Positions 41,911 to 53,645 of a DNA stretch of 53,740 bases are shown here, one piece after another. The notes beneath the pieces were generated by a model. The model ran no database searches and was not told the DNA's origin. It was given only the letters and a program-made list of their open reading frames with translations. The stretch covers positions 1 through 53,740 of the forward strand of contig CALWNO010000014.1 in the NCBI GenBank assembly GCA_944382785.1, in the 5' to 3' direction. The DNA is from an uncultured Gemmiger sp. (lineage in GTDB: Bacteria > Bacillota > Clostridia > Oscillospirales > Ruminococcaceae). Position numbers and translations under genes: made by a program. The first letter of the stretch is position 1; each line of letters starts with the position of its first letter.

Positions 41911-42007
41911 GCAGCAGTGGGATGCGGGACCCGCACCGCGCACAAGGCTTCGTCCTGCCACAACTCCCCGTTGGTCAGGCACTTAACGCGCGGGCCCCTA
42001 CTCTGCC
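41911..42007 (-). promoter_or_regulatory. Tetrahydrofolate (THF) riboswitch
   Basis: The minus-strand RNA contains the conserved THF elements in order: AGAGTAG, GCGCGTTAAGTGCC, GACGAAG, GCGCGGTG and GCATCC. The ends close as a P1 stem (GCAG/CTGC). The aptamer precedes an intrinsic terminator, so bound folate should switch off folT. Confidence 0.92.
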
Positions 42008-43805: not shown

Positions 43806-46800
43806 TTATTTCACCATGGGATCACGGTGCAAAGTGGCGATATCCACCAGTTCCATCTTGCTGATGTCATGGTCCCCGCGCAGAGCATCCACCAGCACAC
43901 GGGCGGTGTCCAGGGCGGTGATGCAGGGGATGGAAAGCTCGGTGGCCTTACGGCGGAACTTGACCGAATCCCGGTGGGGGTCACGGCCATGGGGGCTGGT
44001 GGAGATGATGTAATCCACCAGTCCGCTTTCCAGCAGATCAATGGCGTTGGGACGTTCCCCGCTGACCTGGCGCACCACACTGCAGGGGATCATCTGGCTG
44101 TTCAGGTAACGGGCGGTACCGGCGGTGCCATAGATCTTGTAGCCGTAGTCATGCAGTTTCCAGGCCAGTTCGGCGGCTTCCTTCTTGTCCGCGTCCTTCA
44201 CCGAGATGATGACGCAGGAGCCGGGGCCGGGGGTCTTGAACTGGTAGCCGGCCGCCACCAGGCCCTTCATCATGGCCTCGTGGAAGGTGGGGGCAATGCC
44301 CAGCACCTCGCCGGTGGACTTCATTTCGGGGCCCAGCATGGTATCCACGCCGTGCAGTTTCAGGAAGCTGTACACGGGCACCTTGACGGCATAGTAGGGG
44401 CTCTTGCCGCCCCGCCACAGGCCGGTGCCGTAGCCCATGTCCTTGAGCTTTTCGCCCAGGGTGCAGCGCACGGCCAGGTCCACCATGGGCACGCCGGTGA
44501 CCTTGCTGATATAGGGCACGGTACGGGAAGAACGGGGGTTGACCTCGATGACGTAGACCTTGCCATTCTGCACCGCATACTGTACGTTGACCAGGCCCAC
44601 GACCTTCAGTTCCCGGGCGAAACGGCCGGTGTAGTCCACCAGGGTGTCGATGACGCTCTGGGGGAAGTCGTAAGGCGGGTAGACGCAGATGGAGTCGCCG
44701 GAGTGCACACCGGTGCGCTCGATCTGTTCCATAATGCCGGGGACCAGGTAGTCCTCGCCGTCGCAGATGGCGTCCACCTCACACTCGGTGCCGTAGATGT
44801 ACTTGTCCATCAGCACGGGGTGGGACATATCCACATGGGCGGTGATGACGCCCATATATTCCACCACGTCGGCGGAGTTGTAGGCCACGATCATGTTCTG
44901 GCCGCCCAGCACGTAGGAAGGACGCATCAGAACGGGATAGCCCACTTCCTCGGCAGCCTTGAGGGCTTCGTCCAGGGTAAAGACGGTGCGGCCCTCGGGA
45001 CGGGGGATGCCGCAGCGCTCCAGCAGCTCGTCGAAGCGTTCCCGGTCCTCGGCCTCGTCGATGGCGTCGGCGGGGGTGCCCAGGATGGGCAGGCCCACCT
45101 CGTCCATATGCTTGGCCAGCTTGATGGCGGTCTGGCCGCCGAACTGCACCAGGCAGGCGTCGGGCTTTTCGGTGGCAATGACGTTGTCCACACTCTCGGG
45201 GTTCAGGGGGTCGAAGTACAGACGGTCGCCGGTGTCGAAGTCGGTGGAGACGGTCTCGGGGTTGTTGTTGACCAGAATGGCCTCACAGCCGTGCTTCTTC
45301 AGGGTCCAGACAGCGTGGACCGAGCAATAGTCGAACTCGATGCCCTGGCCGATGCGGATGGGACCGGAACCAAAGACCAGCACCTTCTTGCGGGACTTGT
45401 CACTGTGGTCGGCGATGAAGCCGGCGGCCTCGTTGTCCTGGTCGTAGGTGGAGTAGAAGTAGGGGGTGCGGGCGGCAAATTCCGCCGCGCAGGTATCCAC
45501 CATCTTGAACCCGGCATGCAGGTCCTTCACCGGCAGCTCGGAGGCGCCGGACAGGCGCAGGATGGTCTTGTCCAGGAAGCCGTACTTCTTGGCTTCCAGA
45601 TACTTTTCACGGGTGAGCTCGCCCTGCTTCAGGCCCAGTTCCAGGTTGGCCAGATGCTGCATCTTGTCCAGGAACCACCAGTCGATCTTGGTGATGTCGT
45701 AGATGACCTTGTGGTCCACGCCCCGCTTGAGGGCTTCATAGACGCAGAAGGCGCGCTCGGAGTCCTGCACATGCAGATGCTCGATGACTTCCTCGGTGGA
45801 GAGCTTCTCGAAATCGGGCAGGGTCAGGGTGTCCAGGCCCAGCTCGATGGAGGAAACCGCCTTCATCAGGGCGTGTTCAAAGTTGTTGCCGATGGCCATG
45901 ACCTCACCGGTGGCCATCATCTGGGTGCCCAGGGACTTGTCCGCATAGACGAACTTGTCGAAGGGCCACTTGGGATACTTGACCACCACGTAGTCCAGGG
46001 CGGGCTCAAAGCAGGCGCAGGTCTCGCCGGTAACGTCGTTGGTGATCTCGTCCAGGGTGTAGCCCAGGGCGATCTTGGTGGCCACCTTGGCGATGGGATA
46101 GCCGGTGGCCTTGGAGGCCAGGGCGGAGGAGCGGGACACACGGGGGTTGACCTCGATGACCGCATACTCGAAGCTGTCCGGCTTGAGGGCGAACTGGCAG
46201 TTGCAGCCGCCCTCAATGCCCAGCTCGGTGATGATATCCAGGGCCGCGGTACGCAGCATCTGGTATTCCTTGTCGGACAGGGTCTGGCTGGGGGCCACGA
46301 CGATGGAGTCGCCGGTGTGCACGCCCACGGGGTCCAGGTTCTCCATGTTGCAGACGGTGATCACGTTGCCCTTGGAGTCCCGCATGACCTCGTATTCGAT
46401 TTCCTTCCAGCCGGCGATGCACTTTTCCACCAGGATCTGGGTGATGGGAGACAGACGCAGGCCGTTGGTGGCAATCTCCCGCAGCTTTTCCTCGTCCTCA
46501 CAGATGCCGCCGCCGGTGCCGCCCATGGTGAAGGCGGGACGGACGATGACCGGGTAGCCGATGGTAGCGGCGTACTCCACCGCGTCCTCCAGCTCTTCCA
46601 CCACCTTGGAGGGCACGATGGGCTGGTGCAGCTTCTCCATGGTATCCTTGAAGAGCTGACGGTCCTCGGCGCGGTCGATGGTGTCGGGGCGGCAGGCCAG
46701 CAGCCGCACGCCGGAACGGTCCAGGAAGCCGCTGCGGGCCAGTTCCATGGATAGGTTCAGGCCCATCTGGCCGCCCAGGTTGGGCAGGATGGCATCGGGC

Positions 46801-47045
46801 TTTTCCTTTTCGATGATGCGCTCCACCACCTCAGCGGTGAGGGGCTCAATATACACATGGTCGGCAATGTCGGGGTCGGTCATGATGGTAGCCGGGTTGG
46901 AGTTGACCAGCACCGTCTCGATGCCCTCGCTCTTCAGAGCGCGGCAGGCCTGGGTGCCGGAATAGTCGAACTCAGCGGCCTGGCCGATGATGATGGGGCC
47001 GGAGCCGATGACCATTACCTTCTTGATTTTCGGGTCTTTCGGCAT
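43806..47045 (-). CDS. carB: Carbamoyl-phosphate synthase large subunit
   Basis: The 1079-residue subunit makes carbamoyl phosphate from bicarbonate, ammonia and two ATP. Two homologous ATP-grasp halves are visible: the first (1-400) starts with KKVMVIGSGPIIIGQAAEFDYSG, the second (about 545-930) with KKVLVFGSGPIRIGQGIEFDYC. An allosteric MGS-like domain (about 935-1079) carries the ATxGTA-like KIYGTAGTARYLN motif that binds UMP/IMP/ornithine in other species. Full length, no breaks. The ATG has AAAGGAGGG upstream and starts 2 bases after the carA stop. It is the last gene of the pyrimidine operon. Confidence 0.98.
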   Translation of the reverse strand: MPKDPKIKKVMVIGSGPIIIGQAAEFDYSGTQACRALKSEGIETVLVNSNPATIMTDPDIADHVYIEPLTAEVVERIIEKEKPDAILPNLGGQMGLNLSMELARSGFLDRSGVRLLACRPDTIDRAEDRQLFKDTMEKLHQPIVPSKVVEELEDAVEYAATIGYPVIVRPAFTMGGTGGGICEDEEKLREIATNGLRLSPITQILVEKCIAGWKEIEYEVMRDSKGNVITVCNMENLDPVGVHTGDSIVVAPSQTLSDKEYQMLRTAALDIITELGIEGGCNCQFALKPDSFEYAVIEVNPRVSRSSALASKATGYPIAKVATKIALGYTLDEITNDVTGETCACFEPALDYVVVKYPKWPFDKFVYADKSLGTQMMATGEVMAIGNNFEHALMKAVSSIELGLDTLTLPDFEKLSTEEVIEHLHVQDSERAFCVYEALKRGVDHKVIYDITKIDWWFLDKMQHLANLELGLKQGELTREKYLEAKKYGFLDKTILRLSGASELPVKDLHAGFKMVDTCAAEFAARTPYFYSTYDQDNEAAGFIADHSDKSRKKVLVFGSGPIRIGQGIEFDYCSVHAVWTLKKHGCEAILVNNNPETVSTDFDTGDRLYFDPLNPESVDNVIATEKPDACLVQFGGQTAIKLAKHMDEVGLPILGTPADAIDEAEDRERFDELLERCGIPRPEGRTVFTLDEALKAAEEVGYPVLMRPSYVLGGQNMIVAYNSADVVEYMGVITAHVDMSHPVLMDKYIYGTECEVDAICDGEDYLVPGIMEQIERTGVHSGDSICVYPPYDFPQSVIDTLVDYTGRFARELKVVGLVNVQYAVQNGKVYVIEVNPRSSRTVPYISKVTGVPMVDLAVRCTLGEKLKDMGYGTGLWRGGKSPYYAVKVPVYSFLKLHGVDTMLGPEMKSTGEVLGIAPTFHEAMMKGLVAAGYQFKTPGPGSCVIISVKDADKKEAAELAWKLHDYGYKIYGTAGTARYLNSQMIPCSVVRQVSGERPNAIDLLESGLVDYIISTSPHGRDPHRDSVKFRRKATELSIPCITALDTARVLVDALRGDHDISKMELVDIATLHRDPMVK

Positions 47046-47047
47046 TC

Positions 47048-48178
47048 TTACAGCCCTCCTTTAACACGATTGATGCGGCGGATGTTCTGGATGAACCGGT
47101 CAAACAGGAACTCGGTGTCCCGGGGGCCGCCGCTGGCCTCGGGGTGGAACTGCACGGTAAAGCAGTTCCACTGCATATACTCCACGCCCTCGCAGGTCTT
47201 GTCGTTGGCGTTCACATGGCTCACCCGGCCCACGCCTGCAGGCAGGGTGCCGCCCAGCACGGCATAGCCGTGGTTCTGGCTGGTGATGAAGGTACGGCCG
47301 GTGGCAAAATCGGTGACCGGCTGGTTGGCGCCGCGGTGACCGTACTTCATCTTGCTGGTCTTGGCGCCGGCGGCCAGAGCGGTGAGCTGGTGGCCCAGGC
47401 AGATGCCGAAAGCCGGGATGCCGGTGTCCAGCATCTTGCGGATATTGGCGATGATCTCGGTGTTTTCCGCCGGGTCGCCGGGGCCGTTGGACAGCATGAG
47501 GCCGTCCGGCTTGAGGGCAGCCAGCTCCTCGGGGGAGGTTGTGCCGGGCAGAACGGTGACGCGGCAGCCACGCTTCTGCAGGCAGCGCACGATGTTATTC
47601 TTGCAGCCCAGGTCCAGCAGGGCCACATGCAGCACCGGACCGCCGTCCTTGGGTTCGGCGGTGGGCTCAAAGGTCTTGGGTGCGGCACAGGTGGTGGATT
47701 TCACCGCCTCGGTGACCGCATAGCCCTGGATGGAGGGCATGAGAGCGGCCATCTTTTCCGGCTCGGCCTTGGGGTCGAACTCGGTGGTGATGGCGCCGTT
47801 CATAACGCCGCTTTCCCGCAGAGTGCGGGTCAGGCTGCGGGTGTCGATGCCCTCAATGCCGATGATGTTATGCTTTTTCAGGAAAGTGTCCAGGGTCATC
47901 TCGCAGCGGAAGTTGCTGGGGGTCGTGCAGGCTTCGCGCACGATGTACCCCCGGGCCCAGATGCGGGAACTTTCCATATCTTCGCTGTTCATGCCGTAGT
48001 TGCCGATCAGCGGGTAAGTCTGGGTGATGATCTGGCCGTAGTAGCTGGGGTCGGTCAGGGTCTCCTGAAAGCCGACCATACCGGTGGCGAACACGACCTC
48101 ACCCACGGTGGTGCCCTGGGCGCCAATGCTGCTGCCAGTGAGCACCGTCCCGTTTGCCAAAATCAGATATGCCTGCAT
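47048..48178 (-). CDS. carA: Carbamoyl-phosphate synthase small subunit
   Basis: The 376-residue glutaminase subunit supplies ammonia to CarB. An N-terminal interaction domain (1-150) contains GEVVFATGMVGFQETLTDPSY. The class I amidotransferase domain follows, with the nucleophile Cys in FGICLGHQ and the catalytic His in SQNHGYAV. The second carbamoyl-phosphate channel feeds both pyrimidine and arginine synthesis. It lies between pyrE and carB, 21 bases from pyrE, on the same transcript. Confidence 0.98.
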   Translation of the reverse strand: MQAYLILANGTVLTGSSIGAQGTTVGEVVFATGMVGFQETLTDPSYYGQIITQTYPLIGNYGMNSEDMESSRIWARGYIVREACTTPSNFRCEMTLDTFLKKHNIIGIEGIDTRSLTRTLRESGVMNGAITTEFDPKAEPEKMAALMPSIQGYAVTEAVKSTTCAAPKTFEPTAEPKDGGPVLHVALLDLGCKNNIVRCLQKRGCRVTVLPGTTSPEELAALKPDGLMLSNGPGDPAENTEIIANIRKMLDTGIPAFGICLGHQLTALAAGAKTSKMKYGHRGANQPVTDFATGRTFITSQNHGYAVLGGTLPAGVGRVSHVNANDKTCEGVEYMQWNCFTVQFHPEASGGPRDTEFLFDRFIQNIRRINRVKGGL

Positions 48179-48199: not shown

Positions 48200-48796
48200 T
48201 TACAGCTTCTGCTTTGCCTGTTCCTTCATCTTGCGGCTGCCCAGGTGAACCAGGGGCAGCTTGCCTTCCTTGCAGATGGGGCATTCATCGGGGGCATAGT
48301 TGGGCAGTTCCAGCTTCAGGGCGCTGGCCAGGATGGGAATGGGAGAGGGGGCGGCAGCGGTGGTGCGGTCCACCACGCAGACGATGCCCAGGCAGATGCC
48401 GCCGGCTTCCTCGATCACGCGCTTGGTCTCCAGACTGGACACGCCGGTGGTGACCACGTCCTCGGCGATGATGCAGCGGGTGCCGGGCTTGATCTGGAAC
48501 CGCTTGAGGGTCATGACGTTGTCCACACGCTCGGTGAAGATGGCGGGCTTGCCGCATTGACGGCCCAGCTCATAGGCATAGACGATGCCGCCCATGGCAG
48601 GACCCACGAACAGGTCCACGTTCATCTCCTTCAGCTTTTCCGCCACCGGAGCCATGACCTCGGCGCACTTGTCCGGGTACTGCTGCAGATAGGCCATCTG
48701 GCAGTAAGCCCCGGAGTGGCGGCCGCTGGAAAGAAGGAAGTGACCTTCCAGAAAAGCGCCGCATTCCTTCAGAATTTCTTTTGCATCTCTTGCCAT
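48200..48796 (-). CDS. pyrE: Orotate phosphoribosyltransferase
   Basis: The 198-residue enzyme joins orotate to PRPP to make OMP. The PRPP loop CIIAEDVVTTGVSSLET is complete, and SGRHSGAYCQMAYLQQYP carries the N-terminal substrate loop. The ATG at 48794-48796 has GGAGGG upstream; the frame to 48988 is not used. The C-terminal tail ends with CPICKEGKLPLVHLGSRK, a CxxC pair found in many clostridial homologues. An internal promoter and leader lie upstream of it, so pyrE-carA-carB can be expressed separately from pyrC-pyrD. Confidence 0.96.
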   Translation of the reverse strand: MARDAKEILKECGAFLEGHFLLSSGRHSGAYCQMAYLQQYPDKCAEVMAPVAEKLKEMNVDLFVGPAMGGIVYAYELGRQCGKPAIFTERVDNVMTLKRFQIKPGTRCIIAEDVVTTGVSSLETKRVIEEAGGICLGIVCVVDRTTAAAPSPIPILASALKLELPNYAPDECPICKEGKLPLVHLGSRKMKEQAKQKL

Positions 48797-48938: not shown

Positions 48939-49856
48939 TCAGTTGTTCCGGGCGCAGCCGCGGATCTCGTCCAGGCTGTGCACCCCATGGGCCTGCATCC
49001 AGTCGGCCATCTCGTTCACGATGCGGGTGCAGGCGCAGGGGTCCAGGAAGTTGGCGGTGCCCACCTGCACGGCGGCGGCGCCGGCCATGATGAATTCCAG
49101 GGCGTCCTTGCCGGTGCTGATGCCGCCCAGCCCGATGACCGGGATGTTCACGGCACCCACCGCCTGCCAGACCATGCGCAGGGCAATGGGTCGCACCGCC
49201 GGGCCGGACAGACCCGCGAAGGTGTTGGCGAACACCGGTTTGCGGCGCTCCAGGTCAATGGCGCATGCCTGGAAGGTGTTGCACAGGCTGATACCGTCGG
49301 CACCGGCGGCTTCCACCGCCTTGCACATCTCGGTCAGGTTCTCGGCCTGGGGGCTGAGCTTGACCACCAGGGGCACGGTGCAGACCTTGCGCACCGCGGT
49401 GACTACCTCGGAGGCATCCACAGCCCGGATACCGAAGGCCAGACCGCCCTGCTTGACGTTGGGGCAGCTGATGTTCAGTTCCAGGAAGTCGATGCCCGCT
49501 TCGCAGAGCATCCGGACCCCCTCCACGTTCTCCTCGATGGTGTGGCCGCCCAGGTTGGCCCAGACGGTGGTGCCCAGGGTCTTCATGGCGGGCAGTTCAT
49601 GCTCGATGAAGTGGGCCACGCCGGGGTTCTGCAGACCGATGGAATTCATCAGGCCGGAGGGGGTCTCGTACAGCCGCTCCCCGGGGTTGCCGGGCTGACC
49701 GTTGAGGGTCAGCCCCTTGCCGGAGATGCCGCCCAGAACCCGCAGATCCTGGATGTCGGCGTACTCGGGGCCGAAGCCGAAGGTGCCGGAGGCCGCGATG
49801 ACCGGGCTGGCCAGACGCTTGCCCAGCAGGTCCACATGCAGATCTACGTCAGTCAA
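48939..49856 (-). CDS. pyrD: Dihydroorotate dehydrogenase, type 1B catalytic subunit
   Basis: The 305-residue FMN enzyme oxidises dihydroorotate to orotate. GTFGFGPEY near residue 24, NISCPNVKQGG with catalytic Cys131 (type 1 enzymes use Cys, not Ser), VVKLSP and VIGLGGI are all in place. The start is TTG at 49854-49856, 9 bases after GAGGAGG, overlapping pyrK by 8 bases. The longer ORF beginning at 49880 precedes that ribosome site. Paired with PyrK, it uses NAD as electron acceptor. Confidence 0.95.
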   Translation of the reverse strand: MTDVDLHVDLLGKRLASPVIAASGTFGFGPEYADIQDLRVLGGISGKGLTLNGQPGNPGERLYETPSGLMNSIGLQNPGVAHFIEHELPAMKTLGTTVWANLGGHTIEENVEGVRMLCEAGIDFLELNISCPNVKQGGLAFGIRAVDASEVVTAVRKVCTVPLVVKLSPQAENLTEMCKAVEAAGADGISLCNTFQACAIDLERRKPVFANTFAGLSGPAVRPIALRMVWQAVGAVNIPVIGLGGISTGKDALEFIMAGAAAVQVGTANFLDPCACTRIVNEMADWMQAHGVHSLDEIRGCARNN

Positions 49857-50634
49857 GGTCGAACACCTCCTCAGCAGCAAAGACCGGGCCGTCCTTGCAG
49901 ACGGTGCGCGGTCCCACCTTGGTCATGCAGGTGCATCCCAGGCAGGCGCCCAGGCCGCAGGCCATCTTCCGCTCCAGGCTGACGATGCAGGGGGTGTTGT
50001 GCTCGGCGCAGAGCTTGTACACGCCCTTCATCATCACATTGGGCCCGCAGGCCAGGATCAGATCGAAGTTTTCGGGATGCAGGATACCGGTGACCAGGCC
50101 GTGGTAGCCCACGGCACCGGAATCGGTGGCCACGCTGACGGCGGCGCAGTAGGGCAGGAATTCTTCCAGCCCGTAGGGTTCATCCCGGAAACCCACATAC
50201 AGTTCCGGCTTGGCGCCGGCGGCGGCCAGCTCCTTGCAGAGGAGCAGTAGGGGCGCGGTGCCGATGCCGCCGCCCACCACGGCCACCCGGCCGGTGCCGC
50301 TCTTGGCGGCTGCAGCCACGTCAAAGCCGTTGCCGCAGGGGCCGGTGAGGGACAGGGTATCCCCTGCCTTCAGGGCGGACAGCTTCTCGGTGCCCTGGCC
50401 CTTGACCTGATACAGAAAGGTCAGGGTGTGGGAAGCGGCATCAAAATCATGGACACTGATGGGGCGGGAGAGCACGGGGGCTTCGTCCGCCGCCCAGCAG
50501 CGCAGCATATAGAACTGGCCGGCGTGGGGCCGGAACTCCGGCCGGGGGTCGGCCCATTCCACCGTCAGGCGGCGGATGTCGGGGGCCACGGCCTGCTGGC
50601 CGATGACCTTTGCCTTACAGTTTATCGCACTCAC
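49849..50634 (-). CDS. pyrK: Dihydroorotate dehydrogenase electron-transfer subunit
   Basis: The 261-residue subunit holds FAD and a [2Fe-2S] cluster that carry electrons from PyrD to NAD. FAD-binding RPISVHDF lies near residue 57, nucleotide-binding VVGGGIGTAPLL at about 119, and the cluster ligands C226-x4-C231-x2-C234-x11-C246 are exact. The start is GTG at 50632-50634 with GGGAGGA upstream, overlapping pyrF by 20 bases. The overlaps on both sides point to translational coupling. Confidence 0.96.
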   Translation of the reverse strand: MSAINCKAKVIGQQAVAPDIRRLTVEWADPRPEFRPHAGQFYMLRCWAADEAPVLSRPISVHDFDAASHTLTFLYQVKGQGTEKLSALKAGDTLSLTGPCGNGFDVAAAAKSGTGRVAVVGGGIGTAPLLLLCKELAAAGAKPELYVGFRDEPYGLEEFLPYCAAVSVATDSGAVGYHGLVTGILHPENFDLILACGPNVMMKGVYKLCAEHNTPCIVSLERKMACGLGACLGCTCMTKVGPRTVCKDGPVFAAEEVFDLD

Positions 50635-51481
50635 TCTGGATATCCTCCCTCATGCGGACACATTCATTATAGGCGGCCTCGGCGTAATCCACACCGGGCT
50701 GCTTCTTCCAGGCCAGCAGGATGCCGCGGCTGGAGTTGACCACGCCGCCGTTGCCCTTGTTCAGGTAGCGGGCGATGTCGGCGGCCTTGCCGCCCTGGGC
50801 GCCGTAGCCGGGGATCAGGAAGAAGGTGTTCTGGTAGGCAGCGCGGATGGCGGAAGCCTCCTCGGTATGGGTGCCGCCGATGACCAGGCCCAGGCTGGTG
50901 TAGCCGGTCTCGCCGATGTAGTCCTGGCCCAGGGCGGAGATGCTGTCCCCCACCAGGTCGTAGACGTGGCGGCCGTCGGCCAGTTTCTGGTACTCAAAGT
51001 CCTTGGCGCCGGGGTTGGAGGTGCGGCAGAGGACGAACACACCCTTGCCCTGGTCCTTGCAGTAGGGCAGGTAGGGGCTGATGGAATCCAGGCCCATGTA
51101 GGGGGCCAGGGTGATGAGGTCGGCCTCGAAGTCGCCGGTAAAGTGAGCCTTGGCGTACATCTCGGCGGTCTTGGCAATGTCGCCGCGCTTGATGTCGGCA
51201 ATCACTGGCAGGCCGGTCTCCCGCACCATGCGCAGGGTCTCGGCATAGGCGCGCATGCCGTCCAGGCCCAAGGATTCATAGTAGGCGATCTGCACCTTGT
51301 AGCAGCCCGCAGCGGACTTGGTGGCGTCGATCAGGGCGCGGTTGTAGGCCACCACGTTCTCCCCCGCCGTCTTGGTGGAATCCACGGCGGATTCGGGCAG
51401 ATAGCTCAGTTCGGTGTCCAGGCCCACGCAGACGGGACCGTTGGCGGCCACGCTGGCATACAGTTTATCCATATTGGTCAT
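50615..51481 (-). CDS. pyrF: Orotidine-5'-phosphate decarboxylase (long/class 2 type)
   Basis: The 288-residue enzyme decarboxylates OMP to UMP, the last step of the pathway. The catalytic DIKRGDIAKTAEMYAKA motif has the Asp-Lys-Asp triad. At 288 residues it is longer than the B. subtilis form (about 240) and is of the class 2 (PyrF type 2) group found in actinobacteria and some clostridia. The ATG has AAGGAGG upstream. It lies 13 bases after pyrC. Confidence 0.95.
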   Translation of the reverse strand: MTNMDKLYASVAANGPVCVGLDTELSYLPESAVDSTKTAGENVVAYNRALIDATKSAAGCYKVQIAYYESLGLDGMRAYAETLRMVRETGLPVIADIKRGDIAKTAEMYAKAHFTGDFEADLITLAPYMGLDSISPYLPYCKDQGKGVFVLCRTSNPGAKDFEYQKLADGRHVYDLVGDSISALGQDYIGETGYTSLGLVIGGTHTEEASAIRAAYQNTFFLIPGYGAQGGKAADIARYLNKGNGGVVNSSRGILLAWKKQPGVDYAEAAYNECVRMREDIQSECDKL

Positions 51482-51494
51482 GGGAAGTGCCTCC

Positions 51495-52685
51495 TTACTC
51501 TTCGCTCTGATAGGTGATCTTGCCGCCCTTGATGGTCATCTTGATGCGGCCGTACAGGTTTTCGCCGTCAAAGGGCGTATTTTTGCTCTTGCTGTGCAGC
51601 TTGTCGGCGTGCACGGTATACATGTGGTCGATGTCCACCAGCACCAGGTCAGCGTCGTAGCCGGGGCAGAGCAGCCCCTTGCGGTCGGCCATGCCCATGA
51701 CGGCGGCGGGGCCGGCGCTCATGAGGAAGCTCAGCAGTTCCAGGGGCAGGCCCTCCATCCGGCAGAGCTTGGTGTAGCAGGCGGCGAAGGCGGTTTCCAG
51801 CCCCACCATGCCCGCGGCGCCCTTTTCCTTTTCCTCGGCGGTGTGGGGGGCGTGGTCGGTGCCGATGCAGGTGACGGTGCCGTCCTTGATGGCCTCCACC
51901 AGGGCTTTCACGTCCTTGTCGGTGCGGATGGGCGGGTTCACCTTATATTGCAGGCGCTTGTCGTCGAACCACAGGTGGTGCGGGGTGACCTCGCAGGAAA
52001 CCCGGGCGCCCTTGCGGCGGCTCTGGCGCACCGCGTCCACCGCCTCGGCGGTGGAGACGTGGCACATGTGCAGCCGGGTGCCGTAGTACTCGGCCAGGTG
52101 GCAGTTGCGCACCGTCTCGATGTTTTCGGCCAGGCGGTAGTCCCAGGGGCTGATCTCCCGGTCCTCGGCGTGGGACATGACGGTGAGGCCCCGCTCGGTG
52201 GCGATGGCAAAGACCCGGGCCATGACCGCGTTGTTCATCACGCCGTTGCCGTCCTCGGTGATGAAGCGGATATCCTCCGGCAGGGTGAGCAGATGGTCGA
52301 TGGTCTTGCCGTCAAAGTCCTTGGTGATGGAGACGGTCTGGTTGGCGTCACACAGGCCGATCTCCCTAGCCTTGTCCTGCACCGCGTAGACGATCTCCGG
52401 GGTGGAGCACACCGGCTTGGTGTTGGGCATCAGGTTGACGAAGGTGTACCCACCCGCAGCGGCCGCGGCGGACCCGGTGGCGATATCTTCTTTATATTCC
52501 AAGCCGGGGGTGCGCCAGTGGCAATGGGTGTCGATGAAGGCGGGCAGAAGGGTGAGCCCGGCGGCGTCGATGACCTCGGCGTCCAGATCGGCGGGCAGGC
52601 CGACGCCCAGCGCGGCGATCTTGCCCTCTTTGACCCAGACATCACAGACGCTTCCGTTGGCGTCCTTGGCATTGCGGATCAGCAT
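51495..52685 (-). CDS. pyrC: Dihydroorotase (class I, amidohydrolase)
   Basis: The 396-residue zinc amidohydrolase cyclises carbamoyl-aspartate. The metal-binding DTHCHWRTPG keeps the HxH pair, and later ligands and the catalytic Asp lie in HMCHVSTAEA and GTDHAPHTAEEK. ATG at 52683-52685 has GGGAGG upstream; the longer frame to 52760 runs into the attenuator. It is the first gene of the pyrimidine operon. Aspartate transcarbamylase (pyrB), the step just before, is not in the window. Confidence 0.96.
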   Translation of the reverse strand: MLIRNAKDANGSVCDVWVKEGKIAALGVGLPADLDAEVIDAAGLTLLPAFIDTHCHWRTPGLEYKEDIATGSAAAAAGGYTFVNLMPNTKPVCSTPEIVYAVQDKAREIGLCDANQTVSITKDFDGKTIDHLLTLPEDIRFITEDGNGVMNNAVMARVFAIATERGLTVMSHAEDREISPWDYRLAENIETVRNCHLAEYYGTRLHMCHVSTAEAVDAVRQSRRKGARVSCEVTPHHLWFDDKRLQYKVNPPIRTDKDVKALVEAIKDGTVTCIGTDHAPHTAEEKEKGAAGMVGLETAFAACYTKLCRMEGLPLELLSFLMSAGPAAVMGMADRKGLLCPGYDADLVLVDIDHMYTVHADKLHSKSKNTPFDGENLYGRIKMTIKGGKITYQSEE

Positions 52686-52726
52686 GATACAGCCTCCCTT
52701 TTTGGTGGTTCTACGCCCGTTTGGGC

Positions 52727-52757
52727 AAAAAAAAACTTTTCCCCAATGAGGAAAAGT
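52727..52757 (-). terminator. Attenuator terminator of the pyr leader
   Basis: Minus strand: ACTTTTCC (52750-52757) pairs perfectly with GGAAAAGT (52735-52742) around 7 bases, followed by nine U. The stem begins at the stop codon of the leader ORF and ends about 40 bases before the pyrC start. Confidence 0.92.
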
Positions 52758-52846
52758 CAAAAAAGCCGCCCGAGCGCGGTGTCAGGAAAAAACACGGCAC
52801 CGTCAAAATTCAGAACGCTGGACATTCGGGCCGAGCGGAACTGCAT
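52757..52846 (-). CDS. Leader peptide of the pyrimidine operon (PyrL-like attenuator ORF)
   Basis: A 29-residue ORF (30 codons with TGA) begins at ATG 52844-52846, 7 bases after a perfect GAGGAGG. It starts MQFRSARMSSV and ends FFPDTALGRLF. Its stop codon touches the 5' arm of the intrinsic terminator. Two U6 tracts fall inside it (52787-52792 and 52759-52764), with more U in the terminator. A ribosome completing the ORF would cover the 5' arm and stop the hairpin forming. This matches the logic of enterobacterial pyrBI attenuation: low UTP makes polymerase pause, lets the ribosome catch up, and allows readthrough. The peptide itself need not be functional. Confidence 0.75.
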   Translation of the reverse strand: MQFRSARMSSVLNFDGAVFFPDTALGRLF

Positions 52847-52901
52847 GACTTTGCCTCCTCTTTTCTGACAGCTTTTACGGGGGTTTTGCATAATTTTTAT
52901 T

Positions 52902-52931
52902 ATTCTACCACGCCCCTGCCCTGCCTGTCAA
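52902..52931 (-). promoter_or_regulatory. Promoter of the pyrimidine operon
   Basis: Minus-strand TTGACA (52926-52931), an 18-base spacer, TAGAAT (52902-52907). It gives a leader of about 210 bases containing the leader ORF and attenuator. Confidence 0.85.
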
Positions 52932-53090: not shown

Positions 53091-53645
53091 ATGTCCGAAC
53101 CACGCAAACTGGCGGTCGTATTTCCCGGCAGAGGCTACACCTGCTCCACCGGCCTGCTGGCCGACGGCATCAACCTGTGGAAAGAACTGGGGTATGAGGT
53201 CCTGCCCCTGGATTTCTCCGCCATCCCCTTCTCCCGGATCGGCACCTTTGCCGAAGCCTTCGACCGGGTGGAGGCGGCAGCTCTGGAACAGCTGGCGGGG
53301 GTGGATCTGGTCCACTGCACCGATCTGGTCTTTTTCTCCAAGAGCATGGGCACGGTGGCGGCGGCCCGCTGCGCTGCCCGCCTGGGCCTGCGGCCCCGGA
53401 TGCTGCCCCTGACCCCTTTGCCCGAAACCCTGGACCTGACCAAACCCGGGGACCGGGTCATGGGCATGGCGGTGGGCACCGCCGACCGGTACATTGACTG
53501 GCACCGGGTACGGGCGTTCTGCAAAGAGCGGGATATCCCCTGCGTCATCGGGCAGGGAGTGGGCCATTCCCTGGCAGACAAAAACGACCCGGCCAATACC
53601 GAAGCCATCCGGCAGCAGGTGCTGGCTCTGTGCCGTCCCCTGTAA
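53091..53645 (+). CDS. Small alpha/beta hydrolase-like protein
   Basis: The 184-residue protein has features of a compact alpha/beta hydrolase: strand plus glycine VVFPGRGYTCSTG at the start (oxyanion loop), a nucleophile elbow SKSMG with Ser85, a possible acid at Asp132 and a C-terminal His159 in GQGVGHSLAD. No lid domain is visible. The substrate is unknown. AAAGGAG lies about 9-10 bases before the ATG. It has its own promoter, divergent from the pyrimidine operon. An IS-like end begins 24 bases after its stop, and no clear terminator is seen before it. Confidence 0.7.
   Translation: MSEPRKLAVVFPGRGYTCSTGLLADGINLWKELGYEVLPLDFSAIPFSRIGTFAEAFDRVEAAALEQLAGVDLVHCTDLVFFSKSMGTVAAARCAARLGLRPRMLPLTPLPETLDLTKPGDRVMGMAVGTADRYIDWHRVRAFCKERDIPCVIGQGVGHSLADKNDPANTEAIRQQVLALCRPL

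Follow-up and report, generated by a model that had tools for sequence, protein, structure and literature searches.

In the Firmicutes, pyrimidine operons are usually controlled by RNA attenuation of the PyrR type. The pyr operon found in a 53,740-nucleotide stretch of DNA from an uncultured Gemmiger sp. (the window) raises the question of what takes the place of this control. A reading of the sequence alone (the sequence-only reading) had seen neither the PyrR-binding RNA loops nor a pyrR gene in the window, and had proposed a UTP-sensing attenuator resembling PyrL. Both absences were borne out: RF00515 found no match in the window leader, even at E-values up to 5, and none in the genome, and the best match to PyrR in a search of the whole genome (an assembly 93.6% complete) scored 27.7 bits against a cut-off of 138.

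Leader and operon in the window

Behind the leader, the genes lie on the minus strand in the order pyrC-F-K-D-E-carA-carB, all matching their protein families above cut-off: pyrC, encoding dihydroorotase and the first gene behind the putative attenuator (51495..52685; TIGR00857, 319 bits), pyrF (50615..51481; TIGR02127), pyrK (49849..50634; NF000798), pyrD (48939..49880; NF005574), pyrE (48200..48796; TIGR01367; start placed by eye at MARDAKE), carA (47048..48178; TIGR01368), and carB (43806..47045; NF003671). The genome is closest to Gemmiger (NCBI family Oscillospiraceae), its PyrC sharing 98% identity with a pair of Gemmiger records, G. formicilis An812 among them. The pyrB gene of this genome lies on a separate contig, and upstream of it (L183) the detector used below registered no terminator. 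Such a separation of pyrB from the pyrC operon is seen in L183 (G000:C28), L193, L166, L168, L174, and L178, where pyrB follows, by eye, the end of an apparent GntR/UTRA regulator gene that is possibly a second pyrimidine regulator. Elsewhere in the window are a THF riboswitch (41913-42007, minus strand; RF01831, 83 bits) and a 184-codon ORF diverging from the pyr leader (53091-53645, plus strand), which has no NCBIfam match, a promoter-like site upstream and a downstream hairpin recognized by eye.

The leader occupies positions 52931-52727 of the minus strand. Its sigma-A-type promoter (52902..52931), which the sequence-only reading had called strong, is near-consensus, with TTGACA at 52931-52926, an 18-nt spacer, TAGAAT at 52907-52902 and an extended TG (11/12 matches). 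The remaining parts described in that reading are likewise all in place: a GAGGAGG Shine-Dalgarno sequence (52860-52854) stands 7 nt ahead of the ATG at 52846, opening a 29-codon ORF (52846-52757; MQFRSARMSSVLNFDGAVFFPDTALGRLF) that ends with TGA at 52759-52757 and contains a first U6 tract (52792-52787, within GTTTTTTCCTG at 52783..52793) and a second one that runs into the stop codon (52764-52759). The terminator hairpin (52757-52735) consists of a 5' arm ACTTTTCCTC (52757-52748), an ATT loop and a 3' arm GGGGAAAAGT (52744-52735), and is followed by a U9 tract (52735-52727) and GCCC (52726-52723). The perfect 8-bp stem previously claimed is present as eight perfect pairs, but the stem is longer, being extended by a G-U pair and an additional C-G pair. 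The stop codon does lie at its base, the A of TGA being itself the first base of the stem. The whole leader folds better than its shuffled versions (z -2.44; 6 of 200 shuffles equally good). An apparent pairing of the Shine-Dalgarno sequence with the U9 tract, seen in the consensus fold of 19 Gemmiger leaders, was rejected as probably a purine tract facing a U run.

Conservation and rarity of the layout

Conservation of this layout (the device) was assessed in 54 upstream regions, comprising the window, the best 38 of 80 pyrC loci (L002-L039, in all of which a leader is seen by eye ahead of pyrC or a neighbour) and 15 regions from genomes of the same family, chosen after a device or possible device had already been noticed there; L162 (G051) and other regions lacking it lie outside the 54. 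The detector recognized a terminator overlapped by an ORF in 52 of the 54, L194 and L195 failing to pass. The stop codon of these 52 leaders is TGA in 40, TAA in 9 and TAG in 3. In 48 of them it falls at the stem base, at an offset of 0 to -2 that varies with the end pairs counted, and the four exceptions place it ahead of the hairpin (-11), inside it (+13 and +14) or beyond it (+39). The leaders are related and these counts are hence not independent, but after clustering at 50% peptide identity the stop is still at the base in 27 of 31 leaders. When the best Shine-Dalgarno-start pair is chosen blind to frame, it is open and in frame with the stem-base stop in 26 of the 27 dissimilar leaders (p 7e-12, assuming an independence that related sequences lack). 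Variable columns, on the other hand, are spread evenly over codon positions 1, 2, and 3 (51/47/57, in six close groups), so that the frame is held but selection on the peptide is not visible, and this same evenness makes sensing of the nascent peptide unlikely. The predicted combination of a conserved frame and stop-to-stem spacing with a variable peptide is thus what the aligned relatives display. A promoter with at least 10/12 matches precedes the ORF in all 27 dissimilar leaders, and the best promoter score between terminator and gene is 9/12, with no room for a promoter in 3 of the 27; the pyr gene hence seems to depend on readthrough.

In a sample of 119 genomes from across the family, the device was found in at least 17, a lower bound that rests on pyrB upstream regions from 53 PyrR-less genomes and pyrC regions from some. 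It precedes pyrC where pyrC leads the operon and pyrB where pyrB leads, the detector having located it, among 60 upstream stretches, at L160, L161, L163, L164, and L187 (pyrB) and at L213 and L214 (pyrC). Matches at L162, where the terminator lies behind an apparent ribosomal protein gene, and at L165 were judged spurious. The L195 leader (G088) was scored by eye as carrying the device, and L194 (G116), in which the ORF may run through a weak terminator, as device not found. In those pyrC loci inspected beyond the best 38, pyrC lies mostly behind another pyr gene. The exact terminator pattern, which misses other stem sequences, occurs in 3 of 295 genomes of the order, all three from the same family. 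Cultured commensals also carry the device, for example Faecalibacterium prausnitzii (L031) and, in L006, Gemmiger formicilis ATCC 27749. The space between terminator and pyrC is enlarged in L006 by about 150 bases, which contain inverted repeats (for example GGGCGAACAATGTTCGCCC) and may represent a small mobile repeat.

Within the genome itself, the layout exceeds chance. A sample of 853,740 bases, made up of 41 stretches and covering roughly one third of the 2.68 Mb, was scanned for short ORFs (ATG or GTG) that are led by a Shine-Dalgarno sequence and close at a terminator in front of a gene. The scan returned the pyr site and no second device. Terminators behind ordinary genes in the sample lie at a median of 26 nt from the stop codon, only one of 37 being within 5 nt.

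Across the 27 base-stop leaders, T makes up 40% and A 10% of the 36 nt that close the ORF, compared with 26% T in its 5' part and 20% T in the genes of the window genome. The U tracts that had been claimed are present in the window as two U6 runs, and a T run of at least four occurs in the last 36 nt of 22 of the 27 leaders, but five lack one and the L022 leader is U-poor. Among 30 leaders of the Gemmiger group, 19 carry at a fixed start a U-rich word, GYTYTTYCCYG, which in the window reads GTTTTTTCCTG and fits the G-10 Y-1 G+1 consensus for polymerase pausing (PMC9291695). Seven further leaders fit the consensus through another word nearer the stop and four do not, so that 26 of 30 match at any position, against 37.7% of shuffles. 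A U tract at fixed distance is limited to part of Gemmiger; elsewhere the densest U stretch shifts place. The first U6 tract is proposed as the UTP-sensitive pause. In the consensus fold of 19 Gemmiger leaders, the terminator alone is well conserved. RNAalifold adds a weak helix around the U tract, with two pairs showing two-sided changes; a hairpin-stabilized pause is not claimed, the stretch around the U tract having a mean z of -0.73 (sd 1.26) in 27 leaders.

Distribution of PyrR and history of the device

The device and PyrR were not found together in any of the genomes sampled. In the family sample, PyrR scores above cut-off in none of the 17 device genomes and in 55 of the 102 others, and the PyrR RNA element, found in 43 of the 119, occurs in no device genome. 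Among 19 genomes reached through their loci (L080 excluded; L024 shares a contig with G054 of the family sample), PyrR is present in 0 of 16 device genomes and in all three Bacilli controls. A Fisher test of device against PyrR gives p 9e-6 and is only indicative, because it ignores relatedness and because screening for the device was uneven, the PyrR genomes having been screened less closely, with the exact pattern and about ten pyrC loci. In the genomes of L040-L067 (Clostridium, Tissierellia, Anaerococcus, and spirochaetes), PyrR is above cut-off in 7 of 20 and the device in none of 19 pyrB leaders. Those pyrB leaders of Clostridium and Tissierellia that resemble PyrR leaders match RF00515 at E ≤0.01 in 8 of 8 cases, all below the gathering score, at which none of the Clostridium and Tissierellia leaders matched; the same permissive search matched none of six device leaders.

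A PyrC tree with 38 rows groups 14 device genomes in a single branch (support 100/98); one of these, G046, carries its stop in the loop. The other three device genomes lie outside this branch: G048 likewise has a stop in the loop, whereas in G078 and G088 the ORF stops beyond the terminator, G088 adjoining G116. The nine PyrR genomes of the tree and two Bacilli form a separate branch, and Clostridium and Tissierellia rows fall between the device branches. The device requires three changes on this midpoint-rooted tree, at least two of them forced by well-supported forks, and the tree hence establishes neither a single origin nor the ancestral form. The device clade may have replaced PyrR control.

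Proposed mechanism and known systems

The leader is quite probably a UTP-responsive, translation-coupled transcription attenuator, a Bacillota counterpart of pyrBI/pyrE control. The PyrL-like reading gains support from the conserved frame and spacing, the freely varying peptide and the absence of the PyrR element; pausing, ribosome occupancy, termination and the role of UTP as signal are inferred. RNA polymerase would start at the leader promoter and transcribe the 29-codon ORF. With plentiful UTP, it would clear the U tracts fast and leave the first ribosome lagging, allowing the hairpin to form and transcription to end at the U9 tract. With scarce UTP, it would slow at the U tracts and the ribosome would catch up; standing at the stem-base stop, the ribosome would cover the 5' arm and block the hairpin, and the pyr operon would be transcribed. 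In E. coli, termination has been reported to fall from about 90% to less than 10% when a stop codon is shifted to a position 5 bp ahead of the terminator, an effect abolished by uncoupling translation (PMC4824070), and tight coupling across pyrL has been described as required to prevent its terminator (PMC5021804).

Other readings of the same parts can be weighed against this evidence. Since stop-at-stem logic works with any slowing of the polymerase (PMC4824070), and the position of the U tract is variable outside part of Gemmiger, the leader could be a coupled attenuator responding to coupling or translation status in general, and not to UTP in particular, with U tracts serving for pausing only. 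We regard this as unlikely: among the 119 genomes, the terminator pattern marks the pyr leader in 12 and occurs at four sites elsewhere (judged by position only), and the 3' part of the ORF is high in T and low in A. Stalling of the ribosome at Phe or Pro codons, as in amino-acid-type attenuators, might be suggested by Phe at 61 of 324 of the last 12 positions in the 27 leaders, but no codon is held across them, T is abundant at every codon position, the codon positions vary evenly and the fold contains no convincing antiterminator. Amino-acid attenuators are, moreover, reported to keep the terminator more than 20 bp from the ORF (PMC4824070), and this reading is very improbable.

The presence of promoter, Shine-Dalgarno sequence, ORF, and terminator in each leader would also suit an ordinary gene for a short protein, closed by a terminator of its own and with no regulatory role. 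Such a gene is highly unlikely given the even variation over codon positions, the apparent need for readthrough into the pyr gene and the much greater distance at which the terminators of normal genes lie. A PyrR-type RNA attenuator or riboswitch-like element would be the usual expectation in the Firmicutes, strengthened by the sub-threshold RF00515 matches of the eight Clostridium and Tissierellia leaders, but it is scarcely credible here, where neither the window, the genome nor the six device leaders match RF00515, PyrR does not reach its cut-off and the terminator alone is well conserved among Gemmiger leaders.

A translation-coupled attenuator bears on how closely ribosomes follow polymerase in these bacteria. 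The Bacillota have been classed at phylum level as runaway (PMC13323073), which would make coupling in this genome unexpected, and short stop-to-stem distances have been used as a mark of runaway transcription (PMC7858274). Distances of at most 12 nt were found for 5 of 37 terminators in this genome, 26 of 58 in Vagococcus, 6 of 15 in Virgibacillus, and 5 of 17 in E. coli, with medians of 26 nt here and of 20 and 19 nt in Virgibacillus and E. coli, which do not differ. Purine excess over genes is -0.006 in this genome, 0.084 in Vagococcus, 0.110 in Virgibacillus, and 0.020 in E. coli. By these two published proxies, the window genome looks like a coupled species, on small samples with mechanically called genes; the purine measure as published takes leading-strand genes only. 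It is possible, though we hold it with some doubt, that in Gemmiger, Faecalibacterium, and their kin coupling-dependent UTP attenuation replaces PyrR, and can do so since these bacteria are coupled despite the runaway label.

The device points to a way in which pyrimidine synthesis could be controlled in these bacteria in the absence of PyrR and, as a conserved Bacillota device that should work only with the ribosome close to the polymerase, makes the coupling question directly testable. No description of a pyr leader peptide in Clostridia was found, judging by titles and the openings of abstracts, in the literature searched, most subscription journals lying outside its scope, and the leaders in the available portion of a paper on new RNA motifs are other ones. 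The PyrR/RF00515 attenuator of the Firmicutes serves the same pathway from the same position, but needs PyrR and conserved RNA loops, neither of which was found here.

In E. coli, control of the pyrBI/pyrE type serves as a textbook example of coupling between transcription and translation. As in pyrBI, with its pyrL leader, a U-rich short ORF precedes the pyr genes and has an intrinsic terminator at its 3' end; the stem and the phylum, however, are different, and the operons here are mostly led by pyrC. The pyrL terminator has U8 followed by GCCC where the window has U9 followed by GCCC. GCCC after the U tract is seen by eye in 37 of the 52 leaders. The pyrL ORF runs through its terminator, whereas most leaders here stop at the stem base and only L163 and L195 run through; the window ORF does not, and is hence classed as working like PyrL and not as a PyrL homologue. 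The 67-codon ORF of the L195 leader (273 to 70, minus strand), found by eye, ends in FNRGVFFLPAARR, strikingly like the LNRGAFFCPGVRR of E. coli PyrL, a likeness that is likely to be convergence via the U run and GCCC. In E. coli, the stop codon of wild-type rph lies just ahead of the pyrE attenuator stem, and the stop-before-stem position seen here recalls rph-pyrE more than pyrL. The position of the rph stop relative to the attenuator has been reported to link translation to pyrE expression (PMC2784333, referring to Bonekamp 1984 and Jensen 1993), but the ORF is there the long rph gene, whereas here it is a dedicated short leader.
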